From Nocardioides humi (lineage in GTDB: Bacteria; Actinomycetota; Actinomycetes; Propionibacteriales; Nocardioidaceae), in assembly GCF_006494775.1 (NCBI RefSeq), contig NZ_CP041146.1, forward strand, positions 744,001 through 808,000: 64,000 nucleotides of DNA, in the 5' to 3' direction. This document shows, in pieces, positions 46,952 to 64,000 of the stretch. Numbering within the stretch: position 1 is the stretch's first letter; every line of letters begins with the position of its first letter. The notes under the pieces are model-generated. The model was not told the DNA's origin. It made no database searches and was given only the letters and a program-made list of their open reading frames with translations. The position numbers and the translations under genes were made by a program.

Positions 46952-47248
46952 CCGGTCCTCACTCGTGTCGACATGGACTCTGACAGTCACCTACGACATT
47001 TCCCCGACCCCGAGCGATCACCGAACCCCAGAAACCTTCAAACCCGCTCCCTCGACCCATCCAGCCAGCCCGATCCGAACCCGACGCCCAAGCCGTCACC
47101 CACGCCCCCAGCGTCCCCCAGATTGCCGCGACCGACCAAGTGCCACACACCTCTTGCATTCTCGGTTCGCCGAATAGAAGGAACACACCAGAAATCCGGC
47201 CGAAAGTGATCGCCTGCCACGCGCGCACGCACGTAGGTGACCGTGACG
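46952..47248. other. Divergent gap ahead of the relaxase, candidate oriT region
   Basis: About 297 bp with no gene. It is flanked by inverted decamers GTCACCTACG (46986-46995) and CGTAGGTGAC (47232-47241), the second touching the relaxase start, and has an internal TCGG-TTCG-CCGA hairpin near 47158-47172. MobF origins commonly lie directly upstream of the relaxase gene, so this is the best place for oriT. No nic sequence could be assigned. Confidence 0.4.
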
Positions 47249-50200
47249 ATGAGCCTCCACAAGCTGACGGCCGGGTCGGGGTACGACTACCTGACCCGCC
47301 AGGTCGCAGCGATGGACGCCACCGACAAGGGCCACACCGGCCTGGCGAGCTACTACACCGAGAAGGGCGAGACGCCCGGCGTGTGGCTCGGATCGGGCAT
47401 GGAGGGCATCGAAGGACTCGACGCCGGCGACATCGTCACCGCCGACCACATGCAGAGCCTGTTCGGCTCCGGACACCACCCGCTGGCCACCCAGCGAACC
47501 AAGGAGCTGGACCTGCGCATCGGCCGCGACGAGGCCGGCCGCCCGACCGAGGCCGACTACAGGACCGCGGTCCGCCTCGGCACCCCGTACAAGGTCTACG
47601 ACAACGACATCAGCCCGTTCCGGATCGAGGTCGCCAAGCGCATCGCGGCCCTCAACGAGGCCGCCGGCCTGCCCGGTGACTGGCCGGTCCCCGCGGCCGA
47701 CCGGGCCAAGATCCGCACCGAGGTGGCCGCGGAGTTCTTCCGTGCCGAGCACGGCCGCGAGCCGGCCGACGCCCGCGAGCTCGCCGCCACGATCGCCAAG
47801 CACTCCCGCCCGAAGACCAACGCGGTGGCCGGCTACGACCTGACCTTCTCCCCAGTCAAGAGCGTCTCGGTGCTGTGGGCGATCGCCGACCCCAAGACCG
47901 CCGCGGTGATCGAGCGGGCCCACCAGGCGGCGATCAAGGACGCCCTGAACTTCATCGAGTCCAAGGCACTGTTCACCCGCCAGGGCACCAACGGCGTGCG
48001 CCAGGTCGACGTCCGCGGCCTGATCGCCACCGCGTTCACCCACCGCGACTCCCGCGCCGGCGACCCCGACCTGCACACCCACGTCGCCGTGGCGAACAAG
48101 GTCCAGACCCTCGACGGCAAGTGGCTGGCCATCGACGGGCGACCGCTGCACAAGGCGGTCGTCTCGGCCTCGGAGACCTACAACACCGCGCTCGAGCGGC
48201 ACCTGGTCGATGCCCTCGGCGTCCAGTTCGCCGAGCGCCCGAACGAGGACGCCCGCAAGCGGCCGATCCGCGAGATCGTCGGCGTCGCCCCCGAGCTCAA
48301 CCGCCGCTTCTCCAAGCGCCGGCTCAACGTCGAGGACCGCCGCAAGGTCCTCGCGGCCGCGTTCCAGGCCACCCACGGCCGTCCCCCGACCCCGGTGGAG
48401 ACGATCCAGCTGTCCCAGCAGGCGACGCTGGAGACCCGCGAGGACAAGCACGAGCCGCGCTCGCTGGCCGAGCAGCGCGAGGCGTGGCACCGCGAGGCGG
48501 TCGAGGTGCTGGGCACCCCGCAGCGGGTCAAGCAGATGGTCCACGGCGCCCTCAACCCGAAGGGCGCGGCCCGCTCGCTGGCCGACTCAGCCTGGTTCGC
48601 CAAGACCACCGACCGCATCGTGGCGACGATGGAGGGCAGCCGGTCCACCTGGCAGTACTGGCACGTCTACGCCGAGGCCCAGCGGCAGGTCCGGGCCGCC
48701 AACGTGCCCACCAACCAGGTCTCCCAGGTCGTCGACCTGCTCGTCAGCGAGGTCCTCGACGACCACTCGGTGAGCATGGCTCGCCCCTGGGACACCATCA
48801 GCGAGCCGGCCGAGCTGCGCCGCGCCGACGGCTCCTCGGTCTACACCCAGGCCGGGGCCGACCTGTTCACCTCGAGCAAGGTGCTGGCCGCCGAGCAGCG
48901 CCTGGTCGACGCCGCCGGCCGCCACGACGGGTACGCCGTCGAGGCCGCGTCGGTCGACCTGGCCCTGCTGGAGTCGACCGCCAACGGCATCACCCTCAAC
49001 GCCGGACAGGCCACCCTGGTCCGGGAGATGGCCACCTCCGGCGCCCGGCTCCAGCTGGCGATCGCGCCGGCCGGATCGGGCAAGACCACCGCGATGCGAG
49101 CCCTGGCCAGCGCCTGGGCTGACGGCGGCGGAACCATCATCGGCCTGGCCCCCTCAGCCGCGGCCGCCGACGCCCTGCGCTCCCAGATCGACACCCAGAC
49201 CGACACCCTGGCCAAGCTCACCCACTCCCTCGAGCAGGCCGGCGAGACCGGCGCCGCGATGCCGGACTGGGTCGCCGGCATCGACTCCTCCACCCTCGTG
49301 GTCATCGACGAGGCCGGCATGGCCGACACCCTCTCGCTGGACGCGGCGGTCTCCTACATCCTCGAGCGCAGCGGCAGCGTCCGGCTGATCGGCGACGACC
49401 AGCAACTCTCCGCGATCGGCGCCGGCGGCGTGCTCCGCGACATCCGCGCCACCCACGGCGCGCTGCAGCTCACCGAGCTCGTCCGGTTCAAGGACCCCGC
49501 CGAGGGCGCCGCCTCGCTCGCGCTGCGCGAGGGCAAGGCCGAGGCGCTCGGCTTCTACCTCGACCGCGACCGGGTCCACGTCGGCGACCTGGCCACCATG
49601 ACCGAGGACGTCTTCTCCGCCTGGCAGGCCGACCGCGCAGCCGGGCTCGACTCGATCATGCTCGCCCCCACTCGCGACCTGGTCAGCGAGCTGAACCAGC
49701 AGGCCCGCGCCCACCGCCTCGAAGGGATCGACCCCACCGACGTCGCCGCCAGTGGCCCGGTCCGCCGGCTCGCCGACGGCAACGAGGCCTCGATCGGCGA
49801 GCTGATCATCACCCGCGAGAACGACCGCCGGCTGCGCACCTCAGCCACCGACTGGGTCAAGAACGGCGACCGCTGGACCGTCCTGGAGATCCACGACGGC
49901 GGCGACCTGACCGTCCAGCACACCCAGCACGGCCGCACCGTGCGCCTGCCCGCCGACTACGTCGCCCGCTCCACCGAGCTCGGCTACGCGTGCACCGTGC
50001 ACACCGCCCAGGGCGTCACCGCCGACACCATGCACGGCCTGGCCACCGGCGCCGAGTCGCGCCAGCAGCTCTACACGATGATGACCCGCGGCGCTCACGC
50101 CAACCACGTCTACCTCGAGGTCGTCGGCGACGGCGACCCGCACTCGGTGATCCACCCGACGCTGGTTCGGCCGCTCACCCCCACCGACATCCTCGAGTCG

Positions 50201-53145
50201 ATGCTGGCCCGCGACGACGCCCAGCGGTCCGCCACCAGCCTGCTCCGCGAGCAGGCCGACCCGGCCACCCGGCTGGGCGAGGCCGCCCAGCGCTACCTCG
50301 ACAGCCTCTACGTCGCCGCCGAGGACCTGCTGCGCCACGAGACCATCACCGCCGCCGACGGCACCACGGTCAACCTGGTCGACGCGCTGGACACCGCCGT
50401 CGAAACCCTCGCCCCGGGCCTCTCCGACGAGGCCGCCTGGCCCACCCTGCGCGCCCACCTGCTCCTGCTCGGCGCCACTGGGGAGAACCCCGTCGAAGCG
50501 CTCCGCGCCGCGGCCGGCGACCGGGAGCTGGAGAGCGCGCGCGACCGGGCAGCGGTCCTCGACTGGCGCCTGGACGCCTCCGGCCTGCGCAACGCCGGCG
50601 CCGGGCCGCTGCCGTGGATGCCCGGGATCCCGGCCCGTCTGGCCGAGGACCCGCACTGGGGTGCCTACCTCTCCCAGCGCGCGCACCTGGTCGAGCAGCT
50701 CGCCGAGCAGGTCCACACCCGCGCCGCCGAGCAGTCCTCGCTGCCGGTGTGGGCGCAGAACGGCATCCGCCCCGAAGCATCCACGGTGGCCGACGTCGAG
50801 GTCTGGCGCGCAGCCATGCAGGTCCCCGTCGACGACCGGCGACCGACCGGCGCTCCGCAGCTGCAGAAGGCCTCCTCCACCTACCAGCGGCGCCTCAACC
50901 GGGCCGTCACCGGAGACCACACGCCGGCACTCAAGGAATGGCGCCAGCTGCTCTACACGCTGGCCCCGCAGGTCCGCGACGACGAGTTCACCCCGCTCCT
51001 GGCCGAGCGGCTGGCCGCGATGTCGCGCGCCGGCGTCACCGCCCACCAGCTGCTGCGCACCGCCACCGCCGCCGACCACCCGGCCGGCCCGCTCCCCGAC
51101 GAGCACGCCGCGGCCGCGATCTGGTGGCGCATGGCCCGCCAGCTCACGCCGGCAGTCGCCGCGCAGATCGGCGACGGCTCCCACGGCGAGAGCGTCACCA
51201 CCGACTGGGCGCCGCGGCTCGCTGACCTGTTCGGTCCCGAGCGGGCCGCGAGCATCCAGGCCAGCACCTGGTGGCCGGCGCTGGTCTCCAACGTCGACCA
51301 CGGCCTGCAGCGCGGCTGGCAGCTCGAGGCCCTGCTGGGCGCCGGCCGAGCGATGCCGAGCGACGGCTGGGAGGGCGTCGACGAGTGCCAGGCGCTGGTC
51401 TGGCGGACCTCGATCGCGCTGGAGACCGCCCCCGACGAGCACGCGCACGAGGTCCACTTCGACGAGCCGCCCGCCGACCTGTGGGAGGGCGTCGAGCCCG
51501 ACCCCGTGGCGTTCGTCGACCACCCCGACGACGCCCCGTGGCCACTGGCCGAGGACCTCGAGCCGCCCGTCGACGTGGTCGACGAGCACCTGGTCGACGC
51601 GCTCGAGGAGGACCTGGTCGTCGACGTCGACGAGGACCAGTACGTCGAACCCGACCTCACGCTGGCCGCCTACCTCCGCGACCTCGGCGGCACCCGCCTG
51701 GAGCCCACCGAAGCCGACATCCGGCTCATGTACCAGCGGGCCGAGGAGTGGCACTCCTCCCCCGTCACGCGTGAGCGCATGGTCGCGATCAACGAGCTCA
51801 CCCAGGCCTTCTTCGAGGCCCGGTTCACCGACTCCTGGGGCCGCGACTACCTCACCGGCCGGTTCGGCGTCGACCTCGCCGGCGACGCACGGTTCCGCCC
51901 CGGTCAGGCGCCGGCCGGGTGGACCAACCTGGTCGACCACCTCCGCGGCCGCGGCGTCAGCGACGCAGAGATGCTGGCCGCCGGCGTCGCCACCGAGGCC
52001 AGCACCGGACGCCTCATCGACCGGTTCCGTGACCGCGTGATGTTCCCGGTGATCCACCAGGGCGAAGTGCTCGGCTTCGTCGGCCGCCGCCGCCCCGACC
52101 TCACCGACGCCGACAAGGCCGGACCGAAGTACCTCAACACCGCCGACACCCCGCTGTTCCACAAGGGCGCGCAGCTGTTCGGCGTCGTCGACGAGCTGCT
52201 CGCCGAGGGTGCCGTCCCGGTGATCGTCGAGGGCCCGATGGACGCCGTCGCCGTCACGATCGCCAGCCACGGCCTCTACCTCGGCGTAGCCCCTCTCGGC
52301 ACGTCCCTGACCGACGAGCAGGCCGCCCAGCTGGCCGCCGTGGGCCGCGACCCGATCGTGGCCACCGACGCCGACCTGGCCGGCCAGGTCGCTGCCGAGC
52401 GCGACTTCTGGATGCTCACCCCGCACGGCATGGACCCCGGCTTCGCCCGGTTCCCCGACGGCCTCGACCCGGCCGACCTGCTGGCCCAGCGCGGTCCGGC
52501 CGCGCTCACCGCCGCGGTGGCCAGCGGGCAGCCCGCCTTCCGGGCCCTCGGCGACCAGCTCCTCACCGAGCGGCTCGACAACCTCGCCCCGAACAGGCGC
52601 GGGTGGCGGCCATGCGGATCCTCTCGGCCCGTCCCAGCCGGGCCTGGGAACCGGGTGTCAACCAGGTGCGGCCCCGCCTGCAGCTGTCCCAGCTGCAGGC
52701 CCGCCGCGACCTGCGCGACGCGGTCAAGAGCTGGGATGCCGACCCGCGGAAGGCTGCTCTGGCCGAGCTGCACAAGAGCAGCGACGTCCGCGCTCGCCTG
52801 GCGGCCGCGGCCGACAAGACGCCCGCCGAGCGGTGGGCGCCGCTGGCCCGCGAGCTCGACCCGCGCCTGCTCGAGCAGGGCGACTGGCCGGCCACCGCAG
52901 CGATGCTGCAGCAGGCCCACGAGCAGGGTCACGACGTCGGTGCCGCCACCCGTGCAATCGTCACCGAGAAGCCGCTGGGTGACAGCCCCGCCCGCGACCT
53001 TCGCTACCGGATCGTCTCGCGTCTCGAGCTCCCGATCGACGGCAGCGAGGGCACGCCGGCGCCGACCACGTCGCAGGGAGCAGCGCGCGACCGGCAGGAC
53101 ATCAACCGTCCGCGGCCGCCGCGGCGCGGCACTCCTCGGCGCTGA
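47249..53145 (+). CDS. MobF relaxase-helicase with C-terminal TOPRIM primase-like domain (one-base frameshift near the end)
   Basis: About 1966 residues. TrwC-type relaxase (1-330): MSLHKLTAGSGYDYLTRQV, YYTEKGETPGVWLGSG and the metal triad THRDSRAGDPDLHTHV (about 264-279). Helicase: Walker A APAGSGKTTA (about 607), Walker B VVIDEAGMAD (about 685), GDDQQLSAIGAGG. An acidic linker (about 1425-1470) leads to a DnaG-like part: VMFPVIHQGEVLGFVGRR (about 1595), PVIVEGPMDAVAV (Glu) and VATDADLAG (DxD). At 52586-52589 four C replace five; restoring one gives ARVAAMRILSARP and an end at 53145. Without it the frame runs to 53176 as low-complexity peptide. It nicks and unwinds transfer DNA and may prime the new strand. 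Confidence 0.88.
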
Positions 53146-53212
53146 TTTGCCCGACCGCCCGAGCGGTGGTCAGTAGCCTTGGGCGCCCACTCCCCCGGCC
53201 GATCAAGGTGCC

Positions 53213-54674: not shown

Positions 54675-55043
54675 TCATCTCGACGCGGTGGGAGCGAGTC
54701 CCACATCGGGCGCCGACGTCGCCGGCGAGACGGCACGGTCCTCGGCCGCGCGGCCCCGGGCGGCTGTCGCAGGCTCCTCGAGGTCGCCGGCCGCGTCGAC
54801 CAGCTGCCGGTGCTCCTCGCTGCTGGGGACGCCGTAGCGACGCTCGGCCATCGCCTCGACCTGCGCCACGGCGTTCCACACGTACTCGCCGGAGCCGTGG
54901 GAGTAGCAGGCGTTGAGGTGCTCGCGCGCGTGCCCGAGCTCCTTCTTGCTCGAGCGCGGGTGCTCGCCGAGGGCCTTGAGTGCACGCTGTGCGCGACCGA
55001 TGGCCTCCGACCGCTCCTTCATCAGCATCGTCGCCTCTGTCAT
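54675..55043 (-). CDS. Hypothetical protein of the tra operon
   Basis: 122 residues, helical: MLMKERSEAIGRAQRALKALGEHPRSSKKELGHAREHLNACYSHG then ending in an Ala/Pro-rich tail. Its start overlaps the stop of the DUF4913-like gene. Family unknown. An alternative start at the inner Met residues (MLMKERSE) is possible. Confidence 0.6.
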   Translation of the reverse strand: MTEATMLMKERSEAIGRAQRALKALGEHPRSSKKELGHAREHLNACYSHGSGEYVWNAVAQVEAMAERRYGVPSSEEHRQLVDAAGDLEEPATAARGRAAEDRAVSPATSAPDVGLAPTASR

Positions 55044-55738
55044 TCCCTCGGTCCCTTCTCAGTTCGGGTGCGCGGCTGCGCACCGAGCGGGTCTTCCTTG
55101 ATCTCGCCGGTGTCCAGGTCGACCTCGACCAGGCGCGGTCGACCAGGCGGCTCGGACTGCTCGTAGGCGCGTCGGTTGACGGGCAGCGCGTCGACGTCGT
55201 GGGCGAAGGCGTTCTCACGCCGCTGGGTACTGGCCTCGCCCAGGTGCTCGTTGTGCCGCGGCCTGGCCGGCCAGCTCTTGTGCTCGTCGTCGCAGTGGGT
55301 CCGCAGCCGGTTGCGCATGCGGTCGGCGAACGCCGGCAGGCAGTAGCGGTGCCACTCCTCGAGGGCGTCGCTGGTCATCGCAAGTCCGGCGCGGCGGCGC
55401 TGGTCGGCCAGGACCGCGATCTCGTGGACCAGGTGCGGGTGCACGGGCCAGCAGCTGGGGATGAGCCCGGAGACGTCCCAGGTGTACTCGCGATTGAGCC
55501 AGATCACGACGTCCTCGAGCCACTCCCACAGCTGGTGGCGCAGCTCGGGGTCCAGGCACGTGGCCGGCTCCCATGGCCGTGGCAGCAGGGCGTGGTTGCC
55601 CAGGGCCTTCTTCTGCTCCTCGGTGCCGTTGATGGCGATGTGGAGCTCGCGGTAGGCCAGCCGGACGTGCTCCCCCGGCACAGGGAACGCGTAGACCATC
55701 GGGGTGGGTGCGGCCCGTCGGGCCTGCTCGGTCGTCAC
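55040..55738 (-). CDS. DUF4913-like protein
   Basis: 232 residues. The middle reads LWEWLEDVVIWLNREYTWDVSGLIPSCWPVHPHLVHEIAVLADQRR, a Trp-rich helical block typical of the DUF4913 proteins of actinobacterial conjugative plasmids (assignment from memory of the pattern). It overlaps the coupling-protein gene (ATGA) and the gene after it. Likely an accessory transfer protein; role unknown. Confidence 0.7.
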   Translation of the reverse strand: MTTEQARRAAPTPMVYAFPVPGEHVRLAYRELHIAINGTEEQKKALGNHALLPRPWEPATCLDPELRHQLWEWLEDVVIWLNREYTWDVSGLIPSCWPVHPHLVHEIAVLADQRRRAGLAMTSDALEEWHRYCLPAFADRMRNRLRTHCDDEHKSWPARPRHNEHLGEASTQRRENAFAHDVDALPVNRRAYEQSEPPGRPRLVEVDLDTGEIKEDPLGAQPRTRTEKGPRE

Positions 55739-57213
55739 AGCTCACTCCTTGTCGAGTCGGTCTCGTCGTCGACGAAGCCGAGGCGGCGCGCCTCGACGAG
55801 GGCAGCGGTCGCCCGGGCTTCGGGGGTGATGACCATGCGGCGGTCGTTGGTCAACCGCGCCCGCAGCGCCCGCTGGTCGGCCAGCAGCTTCTCGCCGGCA
55901 TTGCCCTCCACGCAGCGGTGCAGCTTGGCGATGATCGGCTTGCCGTTCTCGGCGATCACCAGGGCTCGCCGCTCGGGGAGCTGGCGGACCTCCTCTGGCC
56001 GCATGATCGGGATGTCGTCGCCGGAGAAGTTGCGACTACCGCCGTTGAACCCGCCTATCGAGTGGGTGACCCGACCGATGCGCACCGTTCCGAGCAGGTC
56101 GGAGATCTCCTGGTTGAACGCGACGTCCTTGGATCCGCCGAACATCACCAGGGTGTTGGTGAGGCCGAGCAGCGCCCGGGCCTCGTGCTCGCCGAAGATA
56201 CTCGTCAGCTGGGGCCGGGTCTGGGCGGCCCAGATGAACGACAGCCCCAGGGCACGCTCGTTGGCCATGCGGGTCCGCAGGGTCGGCAGCGGCGCGGTCG
56301 ACGGCAGCTCGTCGAGCACCGAGACCAGCGGCGGACACAGCCGGCCACCCCACGGGGAGTTGTTGGCCAGCAGCAGCCCGGTGTCCAGGACGTGCTCGGC
56401 CACCGCGGTCATGAGCGGGCTGGCCGAGGCGTAGGGGTCTTCGCGGCCCAGCAGGTAGATGGTGCCGCGGCGGCGGATCACGTCGGCCAGGTCGGTGGCC
56501 GGGTGCCCGTGGCTGGGTACGCAGCGGCGGCGGATGTCGGCCTGGAAGAACAGCGACACCGCCTGCTGCACCGTGGTGACGGTGTTGCCGGCGGTGCGGT
56601 CGTCACCGTTGAGCGCCCCGTGCAGCAGGCCGTGCCAGAACGGCTCGGCGTGCGGGTGCCGGCGCAGGATCTCCATCGGCTGGGTGGCCGCGGTCGGGTT
56701 CGCGACCCACTGCAGCACATCCTCGAGGGTCTTCCCGGTCAGCGCCGCGGCGTGGAAGTAGCCCTGCAGCACCTTCGCGGACTCCGCGGCGTAGAACCGG
56801 GCGGCGTCGTCGCCGGTGCCGCCGGTGATCGCGCCCTTGACCGTGCCGGCGGTGAAGGCCTTGGCTCGCCGCTCGGCGACCTTCGGGTCCACGCAGCCGG
56901 CGATCGGATCCCAGATCAGCTCGTCGACGACGCCCTCGGCCAGACCGAACGGGTCGAGCACCACGCACGGCCGGTCGTCGCGGGAGCGTTCGGTGAGGCT
57001 GAGTAGCAGGTCCTCGACCTTCGTCAGGGTCACCAGGGCAGCGCCCGGGGCGCCGAGCAGCGCCGGGGTGAGCAGGTCGAGGGTCTTGCCGGAGCCCTGT
57101 GGGCCGATCACGCCGGCGGTGCGGTCCCACGGCACCCACAGCTCGCCGCCGCGCGGCTCGTGTGCGTCGCCGATGCGCCAGCCCACGTCCAGCGGGTTGA
57201 ACCTCAGCTTCAT
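55735..57213 (-). CDS. traD: TraD/TraG-type conjugative coupling ATPase
   Basis: 492 residues. Walker A GVIGPQGSGKTLDLL (about 34-48), Walker B VSVLDELPSTAPLP (about 300), then IWAAQTRPQLTSIFG and NTLVMFGGSKD, the TraM-recognition/TraD C-terminal block. It lacks N-terminal membrane helices; the overlapping upstream gene encodes them. It would link the relaxosome to a secretion channel and drive DNA transfer. ATG 57213 matches the overlap with that gene. Confidence 0.88.
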   Translation of the reverse strand: MKLRFNPLDVGWRIGDAHEPRGGELWVPWDRTAGVIGPQGSGKTLDLLTPALLGAPGAALVTLTKVEDLLLSLTERSRDDRPCVVLDPFGLAEGVVDELIWDPIAGCVDPKVAERRAKAFTAGTVKGAITGGTGDDAARFYAAESAKVLQGYFHAAALTGKTLEDVLQWVANPTAATQPMEILRRHPHAEPFWHGLLHGALNGDDRTAGNTVTTVQQAVSLFFQADIRRRCVPSHGHPATDLADVIRRRGTIYLLGREDPYASASPLMTAVAEHVLDTGLLLANNSPWGGRLCPPLVSVLDELPSTAPLPTLRTRMANERALGLSFIWAAQTRPQLTSIFGEHEARALLGLTNTLVMFGGSKDVAFNQEISDLLGTVRIGRVTHSIGGFNGGSRNFSGDDIPIMRPEEVRQLPERRALVIAENGKPIIAKLHRCVEGNAGEKLLADQRALRARLTNDRRMVITPEARATAALVEARRLGFVDDETDSTRSEL

Positions 57214-57812
57214 CGCTCCTCCTTCGTGCGGCGGCCGTCCAGGAGCCACGGGCTGAGCCCGTGGCCCAGCTGCGGCCCGGCTTGTTCGGTGAGGTCGCCG
57301 GCGGCGCGCTGGACGGGTGCCGTCGTGGCGGTGGTGTGCTTGCCGTAGAGGTCAGGCCGGACGATGCCGGCGACCTTGCGCAGCCGGGTGACGCCCAGCA
57401 GCTTCTCGGCCTCGGCGGCGGTGGCCATGCCGCGCATGCGTCCCGGGCCCCAGCGCTGGTAGGCCCACACGCCGACCCAGATCGTGGCGGTCAGCAGGGC
57501 GGCTTCGGTGAGCGCGAGGCTGGCCCACACCAGACCGCGACCAGCCAGTCCGTCGGGGGTGGGTGCGGGTAGTCCGGCGTCGGCGTGGCCGCCGAGCACG
57601 CCGGGGAGGCTGGTCCAGAAGGCGGTCCCGATCGGTGAGGGGAACGCGCCGGCGTTGGCGTCCGGCCAGGTCCACCCGGCACCGGCGAGCAGGTTCGCGA
57701 CCGATCGGCCGAGCTGGATGCCGATGACGACGACGAACAGCGTCGCCAGGGCGACGGCGACGGGGATCTCCCAGGTCCAGGGGTACGGGTCGCGTCGGCG
57801 CTCTCTCTGCAT
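57210..57812 (-). CDS. Tra membrane protein, probable membrane partner of TraD
   Basis: 200 residues from ATG 57812 (MQRERRRDPYPWTWEIP). Two membrane segments (about 15-35 and 95-118) flank a soluble loop; the C-terminal part EAEKLLGVTRLRKVAGIVRPDLYGK is a conserved-looking cytoplasmic block. The stop overlaps the coupling ATPase start. It probably supplies the membrane anchor that this TraD lacks; family name not recognised. Confidence 0.7.
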   Translation of the reverse strand: MQRERRRDPYPWTWEIPVAVALATLFVVVIGIQLGRSVANLLAGAGWTWPDANAGAFPSPIGTAFWTSLPGVLGGHADAGLPAPTPDGLAGRGLVWASLALTEAALLTATIWVGVWAYQRWGPGRMRGMATAAEAEKLLGVTRLRKVAGIVRPDLYGKHTTATTAPVQRAAGDLTEQAGPQLGHGLSPWLLDGRRTKEER

Positions 57813-57843
57813 GGATTCACCTCGTGGTCGAAAGTTCTGGCTG

Positions 57844-57853
57844 GTCACCTATG
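57844..57853 (-). promoter_or_regulatory. GTCACCTATG decamer ahead of the tra membrane gene
   Basis: A single copy of the decamer family seen ahead of ssb and the relaxase, 31 bp upstream of the 57812 start and 22 bp after the stop of the large nuclease/hydrolase gene. Confidence 0.45.
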
Positions 57854-57875: not shown

Positions 57876-60800
57876 TCAGACGGAGCGGGTCGGCTTTGAG
57901 GCGTTCTCCGCCAGCCAGGTCGAGGGGTCGACGTTGTCGGGGCCGTAGATCGAGCCGTTCTTGAGGTGGACCTCGAAGTGAAGGTGACACCCGGAGACGT
58001 TGCCCTCCTTGCCGACCTGGCCGATCGGCTCGCCGGCGGCGACCGTCTGGCCGCGGCTGACGCTGACGCTCTGCATGTGCGCGTACCAGGTCGTCAGCGA
58101 CCCGGCGCCGGTGGTGACCTTGACCAGCTGAGGACCGGCCCAGCCCTGGCTGCTGTCGATCTCGATGGTGCCGGCGTGCGCGGCGTAGACGGTCGTGCCG
58201 CAGGGCGCGGAGAAGTCGGTCCCGGTGTGCCAGTTGGACCAGTAGGGCCCGGTCTCGTGCCAGTTGTGGTTGTCGGTGCCGATGTACTGCGCGGGAACCG
58301 GGTAGACCACCTCGTCGCAGGACGCGCCGTCGAGACCGATCGGGGTGACCTTGGCGTCGGGCAGCACGTTGATGTGCGGGTGGTCCATGTGGTTGGCGGT
58401 GGCCGAGCCCCGGTCCTCCATCCGCCGCCAGCCCTCGTCGGCGCGCGCGACCGACCAGATGCGCTGGTACCAGATGATGTAGTCGATCCCGAGCTCGCGC
58501 GCGTGGGCCTGGGCATAGGCCACGAGCGCGTCGCCTTGGGCCTTGCCGGCGGGCGTGAGCGGGACCATGAAGTCGGCCGCGAGCCCGGCCGGGTGGCCGT
58601 TGGGGTCGGTGGCGCTCTCGCGGTAGCCGCCGACGGTCTTGATGTCGAACATCGGGCCGAGGATGTTGACCAGCTGCGTCAGCTGCGGCTTGACCGGGCC
58701 GAGGTTGTAGTTGGTCGCCTGCGCGACCGCGCAGCCCGCGCTGCTGCCGGCAGTGGTGGCGACCACCAGCGGGTGGTCGGCGATCTTGCTGGCCTGCGTG
58801 CTGTTGTCGACCTCGGCGCTGGCCCAGGTGAGGTTGGCCCCGTAGATGTGGTCGATCGGCGCGTCCTTCTTGGGCTTCTTGCAGGGCTCTGCCGATCCAC
58901 CGAAGGCGTTGGTGAGCTCGGGGGTGAGCACACAGTGTGAGGAGTTGTTGCCGTCCTTGCCGTCGTTGAAGTCGCCCAGGATCACCGCCGGGGTGCCGGT
59001 CCCGACGAGGTCGGTCATGGTGGCCAGCTGGCGGCGCAGCGCCTCCTTGCGGTGCCCGGCGGCGTTCCCGTGGGTGTCGGCCGGGTTGTGGATGCTCCAC
59101 ACCCAGATGACCTGGCCGGTGGTCGTCGACGTCAGCTGCACCAAGGGCATGCCGACGTCCTTGCCGCCGAAGTAGGGGATGTCGACGAGGCGGCCGTCGG
59201 TCTGCTTCCACTCGTTGCGGTCCCAGATGACCCGGTTCTGCGCCTTCCCGCTGGCCGGATAGATCCCCCACTTGGCCGCGTATTGGTTCTCCAGCGCCTT
59301 GGCCTGCGGGCCGTGCACCTCCTGGAGGCCGGCGATCGTGACGCCTGCGTTCTCGATCGTGCGCATGGCCCCGGGGAGTCGCTTGTCCCAGGTGTCGTAG
59401 CCGGGCCGCTCCCCTGCCTTGTCGGTGTGGCCGGCGCCGAGCAGGTTGAGGGTGCCGACGGTGACCGGGTTGACGGTCTCGCCCTGGCAATTGGCCACGT
59501 TCGTGGTGGAGCCGTCGTCGGGAAGGTCGGGCAGGTCGCCGCCGAGCAGATCGGTGATGTCGCCGGCGACGTCCTCCCACTGGGCGTAGGCGTCGGGGTA
59601 GCCGGAGCGCTGAACGGCCTGGGCGGCCTGGGTCAGCGGCATCTTCTGCCAGCCTGGGATGTCGAGCAGGCCGGGGTTGCCGGTGTGCTGGGCTTCGCCG
59701 AAGAAGGCCCGCGCCGCGAGGACCGGGTTGGTGACCTCGGCACGGCTGCCCCAGCCCTGAGAGGGGCGCTGCTGGAACAGGCCGCCGGAGTCGCGGTCGC
59801 CGCCGGTGAGGTTGACCAGCTTGGACTCCTGGATCGCGGTGGCGATGGCGATCTGCAGCCCGCGGCGGGGCACCAGGAGGTCGCGGGCGACCTGGGCGAT
59901 GGTGATCGCGTTGCGGGCTTGCTCGGCGGTCATGGTCGGGTAGCTGGAGGCGAACCGCAGACGCATCAGCTGGGCGAGCACGTCCCCGGATGGCGGCTCG
60001 GCCGCCGTCTTCGTGGTGTGGGCGGCGTTCACCACGCCGTCGCTGGTGGCCGCGGTCGTGGGCGCGCTCTCGGGGCCGGCGCCGTTCATGGAGAGGCGGG
60101 CGGAGATCCAGTGGTGGTCGGAGACCATCGTTCCGGACCATCCCCGCTCGAGGCGCACGCCCTGGTGCTGGGGGAAGAAGACGAAGTCGACCGCGTGGTT
60201 GTGCCAGCCGTAGCCGGCGGCCTTCATCTTCGCGGCCGCCGCCCACGGCAGGTTGGTGTAGGAGGCGTGGGTGTTCATGTCGCCGCCGATGAGCACCGGG
60301 CCGTGGGTGGCCAGCGAGTTGCGCAGCTGCAGCAGGATGTCCATGCCGGCGCCGTACTGCTGGGGCCGGGTCAGCGGCGGGTTCCCGTGCTGCCGGGGGT
60401 ACTTGTGCGGGTTGGTCATGTGGTGGGTGGAGATGACCGAGACCACGGCGCCGTCGGCGCGCTCGAGGATCACCCACGTGGCGAACCGGTCCCAGGTGAC
60501 CGCCCGGCCCTGGTAGTAGGTGTTGTCGTCGACGACGAGGGTGACCCGGCCGCCGTTGGCCTTGGACCAGGTGTCGCGCTTCCAGAGCACGACGTTGCCC
60601 ATGGAGTTGTTGTCGCCGGTGTGGTCGGAGACCCGAAACGCGCCGAAGCCGGGGGCGGCGGCCTCGACCTGTGCCAGGCTCCACCCGCTGGCCTCGTTGA
60701 GGGTGACGAAGTCGGGGTTGGTCGAGAGGACCTTGGGCATGGACGCGCGGAAGCCGTCCAGGCCGGACCGGCGCGGGATGTTGGCCTGCGCCAGGGTGAC

Positions 60801-60995
60801 CTTGCCCTTGACCGGGCCGCCCACGGGCCCGTCGATGACGCCGAGGTCCCCGAGCTCGGTGGGGGCGGTCTGGTTGGTCTGGGTGCGGCACTCCGCGGCC
60901 GCGGTCGTGCTCATGACCACCATCAGGGAGACCAGCAGCGGCAGGCCCATGAAGATGATCAGGACCGGCAGTCCGGCGAGCAGAAGCTTCTTCAC
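57876..60995 (-). CDS. Giant exported protein: EEP nuclease, transglycosylase-like, EEP nuclease, ARB_07466-like, M23 peptidase
   Basis: 1039 residues, intact. A signal/anchor segment (1-32, LLLAGLPVLIIFMGLPLLV) is followed by a first endonuclease/exonuclease/phosphatase domain (about 65-310): LNEASG, STHHM, GGDMNTH, VDFVFF, SDHHW. A transglycosylase-like stretch (about 365-450): ATAIQESKLVNL, SGGLFQQRPSQGWG. A second EEP domain (about 510-750): TLNLLG, LQEVHG, SIHNPAD, GDFNDG, PIDHIYG, ADHPLV. An ARB_07466-like domain (about 765-890). An M23 endopeptidase (about 915-1020): HTGTDFSAP and CHLHFEVH. Both nuclease sites look complete. The cell-wall part fits a channel-opening hydrolase; nuclease targets are unknown. 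First visible gene of the tra operon. Confidence 0.85.
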   Translation of the reverse strand: MKKLLLAGLPVLIIFMGLPLLVSLMVVMSTTAAAECRTQTNQTAPTELGDLGVIDGPVGGPVKGKVTLAQANIPRRSGLDGFRASMPKVLSTNPDFVTLNEASGWSLAQVEAAAPGFGAFRVSDHTGDNNSMGNVVLWKRDTWSKANGGRVTLVVDDNTYYQGRAVTWDRFATWVILERADGAVVSVISTHHMTNPHKYPRQHGNPPLTRPQQYGAGMDILLQLRNSLATHGPVLIGGDMNTHASYTNLPWAAAAKMKAAGYGWHNHAVDFVFFPQHQGVRLERGWSGTMVSDHHWISARLSMNGAGPESAPTTAATSDGVVNAAHTTKTAAEPPSGDVLAQLMRLRFASSYPTMTAEQARNAITIAQVARDLLVPRRGLQIAIATAIQESKLVNLTGGDRDSGGLFQQRPSQGWGSRAEVTNPVLAARAFFGEAQHTGNPGLLDIPGWQKMPLTQAAQAVQRSGYPDAYAQWEDVAGDITDLLGGDLPDLPDDGSTTNVANCQGETVNPVTVGTLNLLGAGHTDKAGERPGYDTWDKRLPGAMRTIENAGVTIAGLQEVHGPQAKALENQYAAKWGIYPASGKAQNRVIWDRNEWKQTDGRLVDIPYFGGKDVGMPLVQLTSTTTGQVIWVWSIHNPADTHGNAAGHRKEALRRQLATMTDLVGTGTPAVILGDFNDGKDGNNSSHCVLTPELTNAFGGSAEPCKKPKKDAPIDHIYGANLTWASAEVDNSTQASKIADHPLVVATTAGSSAGCAVAQATNYNLGPVKPQLTQLVNILGPMFDIKTVGGYRESATDPNGHPAGLAADFMVPLTPAGKAQGDALVAYAQAHARELGIDYIIWYQRIWSVARADEGWRRMEDRGSATANHMDHPHINVLPDAKVTPIGLDGASCDEVVYPVPAQYIGTDNHNWHETGPYWSNWHTGTDFSAPCGTTVYAAHAGTIEIDSSQGWAGPQLVKVTTGAGSLTTWYAHMQSVSVSRGQTVAAGEPIGQVGKEGNVSGCHLHFEVHLKNGSIYGPDNVDPSTWLAENASKPTRSV

Positions 60996-61194
60996 GACAG
61001 GTCAGTCCCGAGCGCCTCAGCCGGCTGTCTCTAGGCGCTTAGGTTCGATCGGCGGCATTGGAGGTCTGGATCCGCGTTTGTGCAGGTGACGTGGGTTCCC
61101 TGCCTCCTTGGACTTGAAGTGATTGGTCGTCACTGTGACTGACGGTTTCGGTGTAGCATCGACGCATGCTCGGCTCCTGTGAAGTCGGTATCTG

Positions 61195-62280
61195 ATGGGT
61201 CTGGTGGCGCTGCCTGGTGGCAGTGCCGGGGATCTGGTGCTGTCGAGTGCGCAGGCGGCCGAGGACTTCGAGCAGGAGCTCGTGGACCAGTACGCGCTGG
61301 CGATGTCGGCGGCCGGCCTGAGTGACGGGCACATTCGAGCGACCCGCTCGGTGGTGATCGAGTTCGCCCGATCGCTGACCAAGCCGCTGTGGGAGGCGAC
61401 CTGCGCGGACGCTGACGCATTCCTGGCTGATCAGCGCCGGCTGGGCCACAGCGTGGCCACCAGGGCCGGCAAGGCCGGGACCTTGTCGCTGTTCTACGAG
61501 TTCGTGCTGGCCCGCTACGAGGGCACGATCCGCCGTGCGACCGGCGTGCTGGTCGAGCAGCCGATCGACGAGTTCAACCGCCAGTCGGGGGCGTCGCTGG
61601 CCAAGGTCCGCGTCCCGCCCTCGGATGAGGAGATCGACTCGCTGTTCACCGCGTGGCGCGGCTCGATCCCGCAGGCCCGCAAGTACTTGCCCGCGGCCCG
61701 CGACTACTTCGCCGCCTCGCTGTGGCGTCGGCTGGGGCTGCGGATCAACGAGACCGTCATGCTCGACATCCGCGACTGGCGTCCCGATCTGGGCGAGTTC
61801 GGCAAGCTCCACGTCCGGTTCGGCAAGGGCAGCCGGGGGCGCGGGCACAAGCCGCGGCTGGTGCCGGCGATCAACGGCGCGGACCAGCTGATCGACTGGT
61901 GGCTGGCCGAGGTCCGCCACCAGTACGGTCAGGACTGGGACAACCCGGACGCGCCGATGCTTCCCTCGGAGCGGTTCGATCGTGACCTGGGGCGTTGTGG
62001 CCGCGTGGGCAGCAACGCACTGCGCCGCGGCCTGGCGATCCACGTCGATCAGTGGCTGCCGGCCTGGTCGGACCGGATGACGCCCCACGTGCTGCGGCAC
62101 TACTGCGCCTCGTCGCTGTACGCCGTCGGCATGGACATCAAGGCGATCCAGGAGCTGCTGGGCCACCAGTGGCTGGCCACCACCTCGGGCTACATCCACG
62201 TGCGCAGCGAGCACATCGTGCACGCGTGGAACACCGCCAACGACCGTGTTGAAGCCCGTCTGGGACTCCGGACCGACTGA
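61195..62280 (+). CDS. Tyrosine recombinase/integrase
   Basis: 361 residues. SAM-like core-binding domain (about 20-130), then a catalytic domain with Arg in LGLRINETV, Lys in FGKGSRGRGHK, HVLRHYCASSLY (HxxR), LGHQW and the nucleophile Tyr in TTSGYIHV. All catalytic residues are present. It leads a three-gene module with a small HTH protein and a zinc-ribbon protein. It may be the integrase of this element or a separate transposon-like insertion upstream of the tra operon. ATG 61195 is the first good start. Confidence 0.92.
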   Translation: MGLVALPGGSAGDLVLSSAQAAEDFEQELVDQYALAMSAAGLSDGHIRATRSVVIEFARSLTKPLWEATCADADAFLADQRRLGHSVATRAGKAGTLSLFYEFVLARYEGTIRRATGVLVEQPIDEFNRQSGASLAKVRVPPSDEEIDSLFTAWRGSIPQARKYLPAARDYFAASLWRRLGLRINETVMLDIRDWRPDLGEFGKLHVRFGKGSRGRGHKPRLVPAINGADQLIDWWLAEVRHQYGQDWDNPDAPMLPSERFDRDLGRCGRVGSNALRRGLAIHVDQWLPAWSDRMTPHVLRHYCASSLYAVGMDIKAIQELLGHQWLATTSGYIHVRSEHIVHAWNTANDRVEARLGLRTD

Positions 62281-62308
62281 CTTCCCGCGATGAAAGGAGA
62301 GGATCAAG

Positions 62309-62665
62309 ATGCAGTGGAGCCTGCGGCTTCGGGCCGCCGAGCGAGGGATCTGGAAGTCAGCGGAACTACGGCGCATGCTGGCCGATGCCGGCCTGGAGAT
62401 TAGCGCCGGGAAGATGTCGTCGTGGTGGGCGGGCACCCCGCCGACCATGCGCCTGGAGGAGCTCGACGTGCTGTGCGCGGTGCTCGAGTGCACCCCCAAC
62501 GACCTGATGACCCCCGAGCCGGACAAGGTCGCCGCCCGCCGTGCCCGCGACGCCGAGGCCGCCAACGGGGGCAACGGGAACGGCGATGACAACCCGAACG
62601 GCGGCGGGAACGGCCCGGTGGTCAGTCCGCGGTTCGGCCAGCCGCGTTCGATCCCGCCGCTGTAG
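62309..62665 (+). CDS. Small Cro/CI-type HTH protein of the recombinase module
   Basis: 118 residues. The N-terminal HTH reads LRLRAAERGIWKSAELRRML then ISAGKMSSWWAG and LEELDVLCAVLECTPNDLM, the HTH_26 variant of XRE proteins. A Gly/Asn-rich tail follows (NGGNGNGDDNPNGGG). AAAGGAG precedes ATG 62309. Probably regulates or assists the recombinase. Confidence 0.8.
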   Translation: MQWSLRLRAAERGIWKSAELRRMLADAGLEISAGKMSSWWAGTPPTMRLEELDVLCAVLECTPNDLMTPEPDKVAARRARDAEAANGGNGNGDDNPNGGGNGPVVSPRFGQPRSIPPL

Positions 62666-62706
62666 ACCACGGCGAGCTCGACGAGTACGCACGGGACAAG
62701 AACTGC

Positions 62707-64000
62707 ATGCCGGGACCAGGACCTGAGGCACCGTTGCGGCTGCCGCCGCGGTGCAACCGGTGTCAGGCCAACCCCGTCGCGTGGACGGCTCCGCGGGTCG
62801 ACGTCTGCTACGAGTGCTTGCCCGGCGGCCCGTTCCCCACGCCGCCGTGCCGCTGGTGCGGGACGACCAAGGACTACTTCAGCCAAGGCCTGTGCAGCCT
62901 GTGCCACCCCCGCAGCCCGCAACGGCCCGGGGCCTGCAAGGGCTGCCTGGCGTGGGGCGTCTACCCGCGCCTCAACTGGACCTGCGGACCCTGCCGCTGG
63001 TGGCGCACCCACTACCCCGAAGGCGTCTGCGACTACTGCAGCCGACACATTCCCGTCGGACTGTCGGGCGCCTGCCGGCTGTGCGTCGAGCAGGCCCAGA
63101 TGACCCAGGAGCCCGGACGGGCCCTCGACTACGCCGGCGCCAACCGGCACAGCCAACAACTGTTCTTGGCCAACATGCTGTTCAAGAAGCGCGTCACGCC
63201 GCGCCTCGCGCCCGAGCCCAGCCTGCGACCCGGGCCACGGGCACGCAAGGCGGCCACGGCGAGCGTGCGCACCGGCGAGGAGCCCTGGAGAAGCCGCTAC
63301 AAGAACCAGCTGCCCTACCCCGCGGGACCGGCTTCGACGACGAGACCTCGATCCAGCTCGCCCTGTTCGACATGACACCCGACCCCGAAGCCGTGCGCCG
63401 ACGGGTCCTGATCGAAGACAGCGAGCTCACCCGCTTGTGCGCCGCGATCGTCGACCAGCACGCCGAGCGCTACGGCTGGTCGGTGCGCCAGCGCAACGAC
63501 GTGACGAGGTCCCTGCGGCTGCTGCAGACCCTGCGCGAGAACCCCACGGCCAAGATCCGTGCCAGCGACGTGATGCAGCTGCCGCGCTACGACGGCAACA
63601 TCATCTCCACCATCGACGTCCTCGACGAAGCAGGACTGCTCATCGAGGACCGGCCCAGCCGCGTCGAGCTCTACTTCGCCAAACGCGCCGCCGGGCTGCC
63701 ACCAGTGATGCGCGAGCACCTCGAGCTGTGGCTCCACGTCATGCTCGAAGGCTCCGAACTGACCCCGCGGCAGGTGCCCCGCGACTCCCAGACAGTCCGC
63801 GTCCAGATCCTCGGCCTGGTCACCGTGGTCAACACCTGGGTCGCTGCTGGCTACCACTCCTTCGCCCAGGTCACGCGCGCCGACATCGTGAACGCGCTGG
63901 CGTCGCTGCCACCCGGTCGACGCCACGCAGCCGAACTCGCGTGCAGGTCGCTGTTCAAGACCCTCAAGGGCCAGCGCCTGATCTTCGCCAACCCGATGCG
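62707..64000 (+). pseudogene. Zinc-ribbon protein of the recombinase module, one-base frameshift (partial)
   Basis: At least 430 residues, cut by the window edge. Four successive CxxC pairs (CNRC/CYEC, CRWC/CSLC, CKGC/CGPC, CDYC/CRLC, residues about 16-130) make zinc ribbons. The frame is lost at about 63320: the C run 63318-63321 has four bases where five give RGTGFDDETSIQLALFDM and a long helical region onward (SVRQRNDVTRSLRLLQTL, LLIEDRPSRVELYFAKR). No tyrosine-recombinase motifs are visible before the edge. It is probably the third component of the mobile module, a DNA-binding partner of the integrase. Confidence 0.65.

Follow-up and report, generated by a model that had tools for sequence, protein, structure and literature searches.

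In the window that we have analyzed (64,000 nucleotides of the soil bacterium Nocardioides humi, G000:C1:744001-808000, from a genome of 6.22 Mb in a single contig), the minus-strand gene at 57876..60995 codes for a 1039 amino acid protein which sits in the VirB1 slot, the place of the wall hydrolase, in an actinobacterial type IV secretion system (T4SS). It joins, in one open frame, two EEP (endonuclease/exonuclease/phosphatase) domains and three domains of wall-hydrolase type. We propose that it is a VirB1-like hydrolase of a mobile element, which would remove both peptidoglycan and a phosphate-bearing component of the envelope: The chances that this proposal is right seem to us about even. 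Multi-domain hydrolases of the VirB1 type are already known, we have not found the variant with EEP domains described in the literature searched.

From the N-terminus, the protein has a hydrophobic signal or anchor (residues 1-34, 60894..60995), EEP1 (residues 66-305, 60081..60800), a GH184-type muramidase (residues 345-486, 59538..59963), EEP2 (residues 511-748, 58752..59465), a VldE-type zinc endopeptidase (residues 755-885, 58341..58733) and an M23 endopeptidase (residues 895-1030, 57906..58313), the type also called LytM. All are on the minus strand. The N-terminus, read by eye, consists of KK followed by a hydrophobic stretch, in agreement with a preliminary description of the window, which had taken the protein to be exported.

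The catalytic set of the EEP superfamily is N/E/H/DxN/D/DH. It is present in EEP1 (N72, E101, H191, D239, N241, D270, D293, H294) and in EEP2 (N517, E559, H636, D675, N677, D715, D740, H741). The Pfam family PF03372, whose search had been suggested as a check, matches two stretches of the protein with 66.7 bits, against a curated cut-off of 24.5, and a search of the genome gives 41.4 and 38.6 bits at the two EEP places. Both segments fold confidently as EEP, which answers the doubt that they might have some other fold. The possibility that one arose by recent internal duplication of the other is ruled out: Each has its own closer relatives, and their mutual match is nearly absent (BLAST of the pair alone gives an E value of 3e-4 over 108 residues, phmmer no match).

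The stretch between the EEP domains had been described as transglycosylase-like. It matches the muramidase structures 8b2e and 8b2h by sequence. When aligned to GH184, Glu390 corresponds to chain residue 41 and Asp400 to residue 66, so both the catalytic Glu and the nearby Asp are kept. The Glu equivalent to residue 41 is essential in a GH184 enzyme (PMC10394673), where the enzymes tested are fungal and bacterial members are only mentioned. The fourth domain was assigned to PF26571 (ARB_07466-like) through its homologues, and it aligns with 9flh, apparently the VldE structure to judge from its sequence and name. His801, Asp808, His872 and His874 fit H301, D308, H373 and H375, the zinc and catalytic residues of the L,D-endopeptidase VldE (Spr1875) (PMC11667670). 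The H-x6-D and H-x-H pattern is therefore kept, here in one domain of five. Catalytic residues are intact in the muramidase and in both peptidase domains, those of M23 being H923, D927, H973, H1004 and H1006. A 660 amino acid frame on the plus strand, opposite the gene (59052-61034), was not picked by the gene caller; it is probably a shadow frame of the G+C-rich kind.

The protein has its closest copies in Nocardioides and Pimelobacter. Full-length homologues are present in 10 of 96 genomes (source genome counted), all from one genus. The genome collection contains 31 loci with a homologue, mostly full length and 81-97% identical, and three plasmids of about 110 kb also carry one (three records with cover >80%). 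Conservation across independent genomes and plasmids rules out an assembly join or a chance frame, and with full-length homologues in so many places the EEP regions are not always separate genes, as had been feared. In databases these proteins are named "peptidoglycan DD-metalloendopeptidase", "M23 family metallopeptidase", "transglycosylase" or "EEP family protein". In a set of 121 proteins (the query and the 120 best of 204 hits), which includes some cut by contig ends, 55 have the five domains in the same order. In the others at least one domain is missing, for example only EEP1 in 27 and only EEP2 in 12.

The catalytic and metal-ligand residues are nearly invariant: Among the 53 proteins longer than 1000 amino acids (query counted), 22 of 28 such columns show no variation, and each of the remaining six is conserved in 51 or 52 proteins. 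Degenerate EEP domains are thus ruled out, and both are intact, as first described. The dN/dS values are 0.31 for EEP1, 0.18 for the muramidase, 0.21 for EEP2, 0.21 for the VldE-type domain and 0.14 for M23, with 0.28-0.34 in the linkers. These are averages over 16 of the 31 loci, leaving out L046 and pairs with dS ≤0.1 (12-15 pairs per segment). Both EEP domains are under purifying selection, EEP1 being the least constrained and fastest evolving of the five domains.

The gene order around the protein is the same in plasmids and genomes: VirB6, SCO6880 family, VirB4, hydrolase, a 212 amino acid protein, and VirD4. In the window, the hydrolase gene is followed on the minus strand by "TM212" (57210..57848), a conserved gene for 200-212 amino acids whose first part includes, by eye, a hydrophobic segment, and by the gene for a VirD4/TraD-type coupling protein (55735..57249, with TraG-D_C and T4SS-DNA_transf domains). 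The VirB4, SCO6880-family and VirB6 genes lie beyond the window edge, at G000:C1:809821-814918, and a tyrosine-recombinase/helix-turn-helix element of about 4.8 kb separates VirB4 from the hydrolase gene. Our survey covers 40 loci (L010-L049), which correspond to 34 distinct places, since six were fetched twice. VirD4 is found in the flank of all 34 and VirB4 in 24, which bears out the earlier placement of the fusion in a conjugation gene cluster. Seven of the ten loci without VirB4 have the recombinase element before the hydrolase, two are truncated by the end of a contig and one (L048) is unexplained. All five domains are present in 37 of the 40 loci; three have no EEP1, one of them cut by a contig end. 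Because of this place between VirB4 and VirD4 in a conserved T4SS order, we assign the protein to the VirB1 slot.

The same slot has different contents in sister systems: M23-SLT-NlpC (L065), muramidase-M23 (L067 and L139), M23 with a VldE-type domain (L068) or a muramidase alone (L066). In many of the 80 stretches we have compared, which were hand-chosen, mostly as best-scoring, and several of which are cut by contig ends, VirB4 adjoins VirD4 with no hydrolase gene between them. The stretches of L060 and L063 stop short of their EEP gene, which a separate genome search placed 13-16 kb from VirB4.

VirB1 proteins which combine two or three wall-hydrolase domains have been described in Gram-positive systems (PMC12857230, PMC12102498). 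PrgK (VirB1) of pCF10, TraG of pIP501 and Orf14 of Tn916 are, like the protein in the window, T4SS-encoded multi-domain wall hydrolases; they are extracellular and membrane-anchored, as our protein may also be. PrgK combines a muramidase and a LytM domain (PMC12857230), and a muramidase and an M23 domain are combined here too. On the other hand, in the available part of that source no EEP or VldE domain is described for these classes. The 1039 amino acid protein also differs from them in having no sizeable intracellular domain and in belonging to a SCO6880-type actinobacterial system. The preliminary description considered the EEP domains foreign to the standard conjugation model, and they are indeed absent from the list of VirB1 domains (CHAP, SLT, MUR, LytM) in PMC12857230. 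We have found no mention of EEP or other phosphoesterase domains in VirB1 proteins in the text available of PMC12857230 and PMC12102498. In the open-licence literature, no report of EEP domains in conjugation hydrolases appears among the matches listed, and no relevant paper on Nocardioides teichoic acids was found.

Next to T4SS genes, these two EEP subtypes are again fused with wall hydrolases, in four further architectures. Plasmids pTC1 and pNOCA01 have an EEP2-EEP1-SLT-CHAP protein (CHAP is just under the Pfam cut-off), annotated as "transglycosylase, SLT family" in the first and "endonuclease/exonuclease/phosphatase family protein" in the second. Like our protein, it lies between VirB4 and VirD4, has the two EEP subtypes and contains wall hydrolases, but it differs in domain order, in the missing dyad Asp of its EEP1 and in showing neither an M23 nor a VldE-type match. 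In the genome of the window, a second T4SS has an 829 amino acid muramidase-EEP1-M23-VldE protein (G000:C1:679097-681586), and the SCO6880, VirB4 and VirD4 genes of this system come after it, over a distance of about 17 kb. This second region, with its own EEP-bearing hydrolase and VirB4, spans G000:C1:679097-699000 (L050, L051). Plasmid pB-N39 has a muramidase-EEP1 protein with a C-terminal part without Pfam match, and genome G462 a 634 amino acid muramidase-M23-EEP2 protein. The catalytic residues are largely kept in these other architectures. In a Microbacterium plasmid (L141, NZ_CP072877.1), the matches to the T4SS hydrolase, SCO6880 and VirB4 run over several frames, as if interrupted.

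EEP1-type domains are found in 7 of 72,556 plasmid records; they are T4SS-linked in all five plasmids inspected (pCHL, pA-N39, pB-N39, pTC1 and pNOCA01), and the other two records look like near-twins by length and position. Among 394 genomes of the class, the EEP1 type (E≤1e-20) is found in 8, all from one genus, and the EEP2 type in 19, from three genera of one family. This search scored 5-6 candidates per genome, and our genome searches generally scored the best 3-8, so absences there are not firm. In the trees, supported branches separate the EEP2 domains of pTC1/pNOCA01 and G462 from the main T4SS clade, the branch of pTC1/pNOCA01 being very long, and the EEP1 domains of the pTC1 and pB-N39 groups are placed among or next to stand-alone proteins. 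T4SS rows with P numbers were labelled by domain make-up instead of context, and g_L163 (the 931 amino acid fusion of G021) is mislabelled as stand-alone. Because of these placements, it is likely that EEP domains have been captured from chromosomal proteins more than once.

Stand-alone relatives of EEP1 and EEP2 are found in Nocardioides chromosomes, many of them with hydrophobic N-termini (by eye). The two genes adjoin each other in L187 and L188 and are separated by a single gene in L189; the distance between them is about 5 kb in L190 and about 20 kb in the genome of the window. L191-L193 have EEP2 without EEP1. We have chosen by hand eight chromosomal clusters with EEP1/EEP2 pairs or several EEP2 genes. 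In seven of them, genes of LicD-like/methyltransferase and PLD-like type are present, as are members of a protein family of (mostly) 359-387 amino acids, for which no Pfam or NCBIfam match was found. The cluster of EEP1/EEP2, PLD-like and LicD-like genes was seen in L187, L188, L189, L190, L192, L193 and L185/L186. Some clusters also carry genes for a glycosyltransferase, DUF6752 or a sulfatase/type I phosphodiesterase, and in one case EEP2 itself is joined to a type I phosphodiesterase. A reading of the cluster as a dlt-like D-alanylation operon, guessed from gene lengths, was ruled out by Pfam.

The association with LicD-like genes is also seen on a larger scale. All 19 sampled Nocardioidaceae genomes with the EEP2 type have a LicD-like gene, against 1 of 18 without it (Fisher p 1e-9, inflated by kinship); in the genus of the window the figures are 16 of 16 and 1 of 4. 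When all places are counted, a LicD-like gene lies within 12 kb of 5/5 chromosomal EEP1 places and 22/40 chromosomal EEP2 places, with a chance expectation of about 0.8% (a rough, back-of-envelope figure), and 16 of the 19 genomes have at least one EEP place this near. The source genome contains two genes of PF04464, the teichoic acid polymerase family, and a phosphodiester wall polymer in the host is therefore plausible. The neighbourhood of the stand-alone EEP relatives points to phosphate-containing surface material.

Given the identity of the domains, their intact catalytic residues and the T4SS slot, we infer that the protein opens the cell wall. It would be anchored at the donor membrane or exported through it. 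Its GH184-type muramidase would cut glycan strands and its two endopeptidases, of VldE and M23 type, stem peptides or cross-links, and together they would make a hole for the conjugation channel. The EEP domains would be active metal-dependent phosphoesterases, related to chromosomal exported EEP proteins and probably captured from them. Since these relatives cluster with LicD-like, PLD-like and phosphodiesterase/sulfatase genes, the most likely role of the EEP domains is to cut phosphoester bonds in envelope material other than peptidoglycan, along the path of the channel. Candidate substrates are a teichoic-acid-like polymer, another phosphoglycan or a phosphoglycolipid.

Several observations weigh against this proposal. 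The eighth cluster, L191, has three EEP2 genes and none of the LicD-like, PLD-like or 359-387 amino acid genes. As many as 18 of the 40 chromosomal EEP2 places are more than 12 kb away from a LicD-like gene, and 3 of the 19 genomes have no place nearer than that. The LicD assignment is itself weak, with a Pfam match that extends over about 30 of 227 positions and no hit at E≤0.001 when the six frames of the genome were searched with PF04991. The two PF04464 genes lie away from the EEP clusters. The dN/dS of EEP1 is close to that of the linkers, and its dyad Asp is missing not only in pTC1/pNOCA01 but also in 6 of 18 stand-alone EEP1-type proteins, so some EEP1-type copies need not be fully active. 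Finally, TDP2 and CNOT6L, which act on DNA or RNA, are about as near in fold as the glycan phosphatase BT3783, and EEP1, which is basic (isoelectric point 9.5), would equally fit DNA binding.

These last points suggest another explanation: The protein would be the same wall hydrolase, with its EEP domains acting as exported nucleases which clear extracellular DNA or RNA, or competing DNA, at the mating surface. The complete metal and catalytic set agrees with such a role. The leading fold neighbours of EEP1 and EEP2 are the Bacteroides EEP proteins 3mpr and 3g6s, the mannosyl-6-phosphatase BT3783 (4c1r) and TDP2, followed by nocturnin, CNOT6L and sphingomyelinases. Nevertheless, nucleases, glycan phosphatases and sphingomyelinases are about equally near and are not told apart by this comparison; 3mpr, 3g6s and BT3783 have only 15-19% identity and come from Bacteroides, so their substrates are not transferable, and sequence matches of EEP1 and EEP2 to solved structures gave nothing useful for the substrate. 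Charge is not decisive either, EEP2 not being basic (isoelectric point 6.5). With nearest relatives which, in the clusters examined, sit with envelope and phosphoester-type genes, the action on DNA suggested in the preliminary description lacks support, and we consider the nuclease role unlikely, although it is the most serious of the alternatives.

Less probable still is a phospholipase or sphingomyelinase-like action on membrane lipids of the donor or recipient, which would loosen the membrane at the junction: Sphingomyelinases are among the fold neighbours, but the EEP domains are no nearer to them than to other EEP enzymes, and the PLD-like match names no lipid substrate. The EEP domains might also be non-catalytic adhesion or spacer modules. 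Inactive VirB1 homologues acting as adhesins are mentioned in PMC12857230, and the fast evolution of EEP1 would agree with this, but residues so nearly invariant in the 53 proteins, and largely kept elsewhere, make it very improbable. A contact-dependent antibacterial weapon, also suggested earlier, would fit the several lytic domains found in one exported protein, but it is the poorest candidate and can hardly be right: The gene is directly flanked by T4SS genes on either side, although no search aimed at immunity genes or delivery signals was made.

The proposed removal of two wall materials may be carried one step further, as a conjecture which we put forward tentatively and would sooner doubt than accept. 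In some actinobacterial T4SSs, a pair of phosphoesterases, taken repeatedly from envelope clusters, may strip the phosphate polymer or glycolipid of the host lineage to let the muramidase and the endopeptidases open the wall, and it might contribute to determine the range of recipients. VirB1 proteins are described as peptidoglycan cutters (PMC12857230). The walls of Gram-positive bacteria also hold phosphate-rich polymers, a second material. If the conjecture is true, there is a class of VirB1 proteins which clears both. Two conserved phosphoesterase domains in a T4SS hydrolase make it testable whether conjugation needs this second material to be removed, and whether its removal sets which recipients can be reached.

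Other genes are found near the hydrolase gene in the window. VirD4 is followed by a hypothetical gene (55040..55738, minus strand), and a gene of similar size occupies the same place in pCHL and pA-N39. A MobF (TrwC) relaxase-helicase of 1979 amino acids is encoded on the plus strand (47237..53176), with primase-like DnaG-N and Toprim domains in its C-terminal part, at residues 1532-1749.

The tyrosine-recombinase element (plus strand, 61025..64000 within the window and up to about 65829) is inserted right at the 3' end of virB4, whose last codons it supplies. A 99.98% identical copy is found at the 3' end of virB4 in the second T4SS of the same genome (L051:7644-12449), whose VirB4 is a 33% identical protein. 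Relatives with 73-83% DNA identity precede the hydrolase in L011, L019, L021, L023, L027, L036, L037, L039, L042, pA-N39 and pTC1, and the element has also been recorded at L057, L059, L194, L195 and L196. All three further plasmids considered (two from Arthrobacter, one from Streptomyces) have a recombinase between the gene in the VirB4 position and VirD4. The element looks like a member of a transposon family which targets the ends of virB4.

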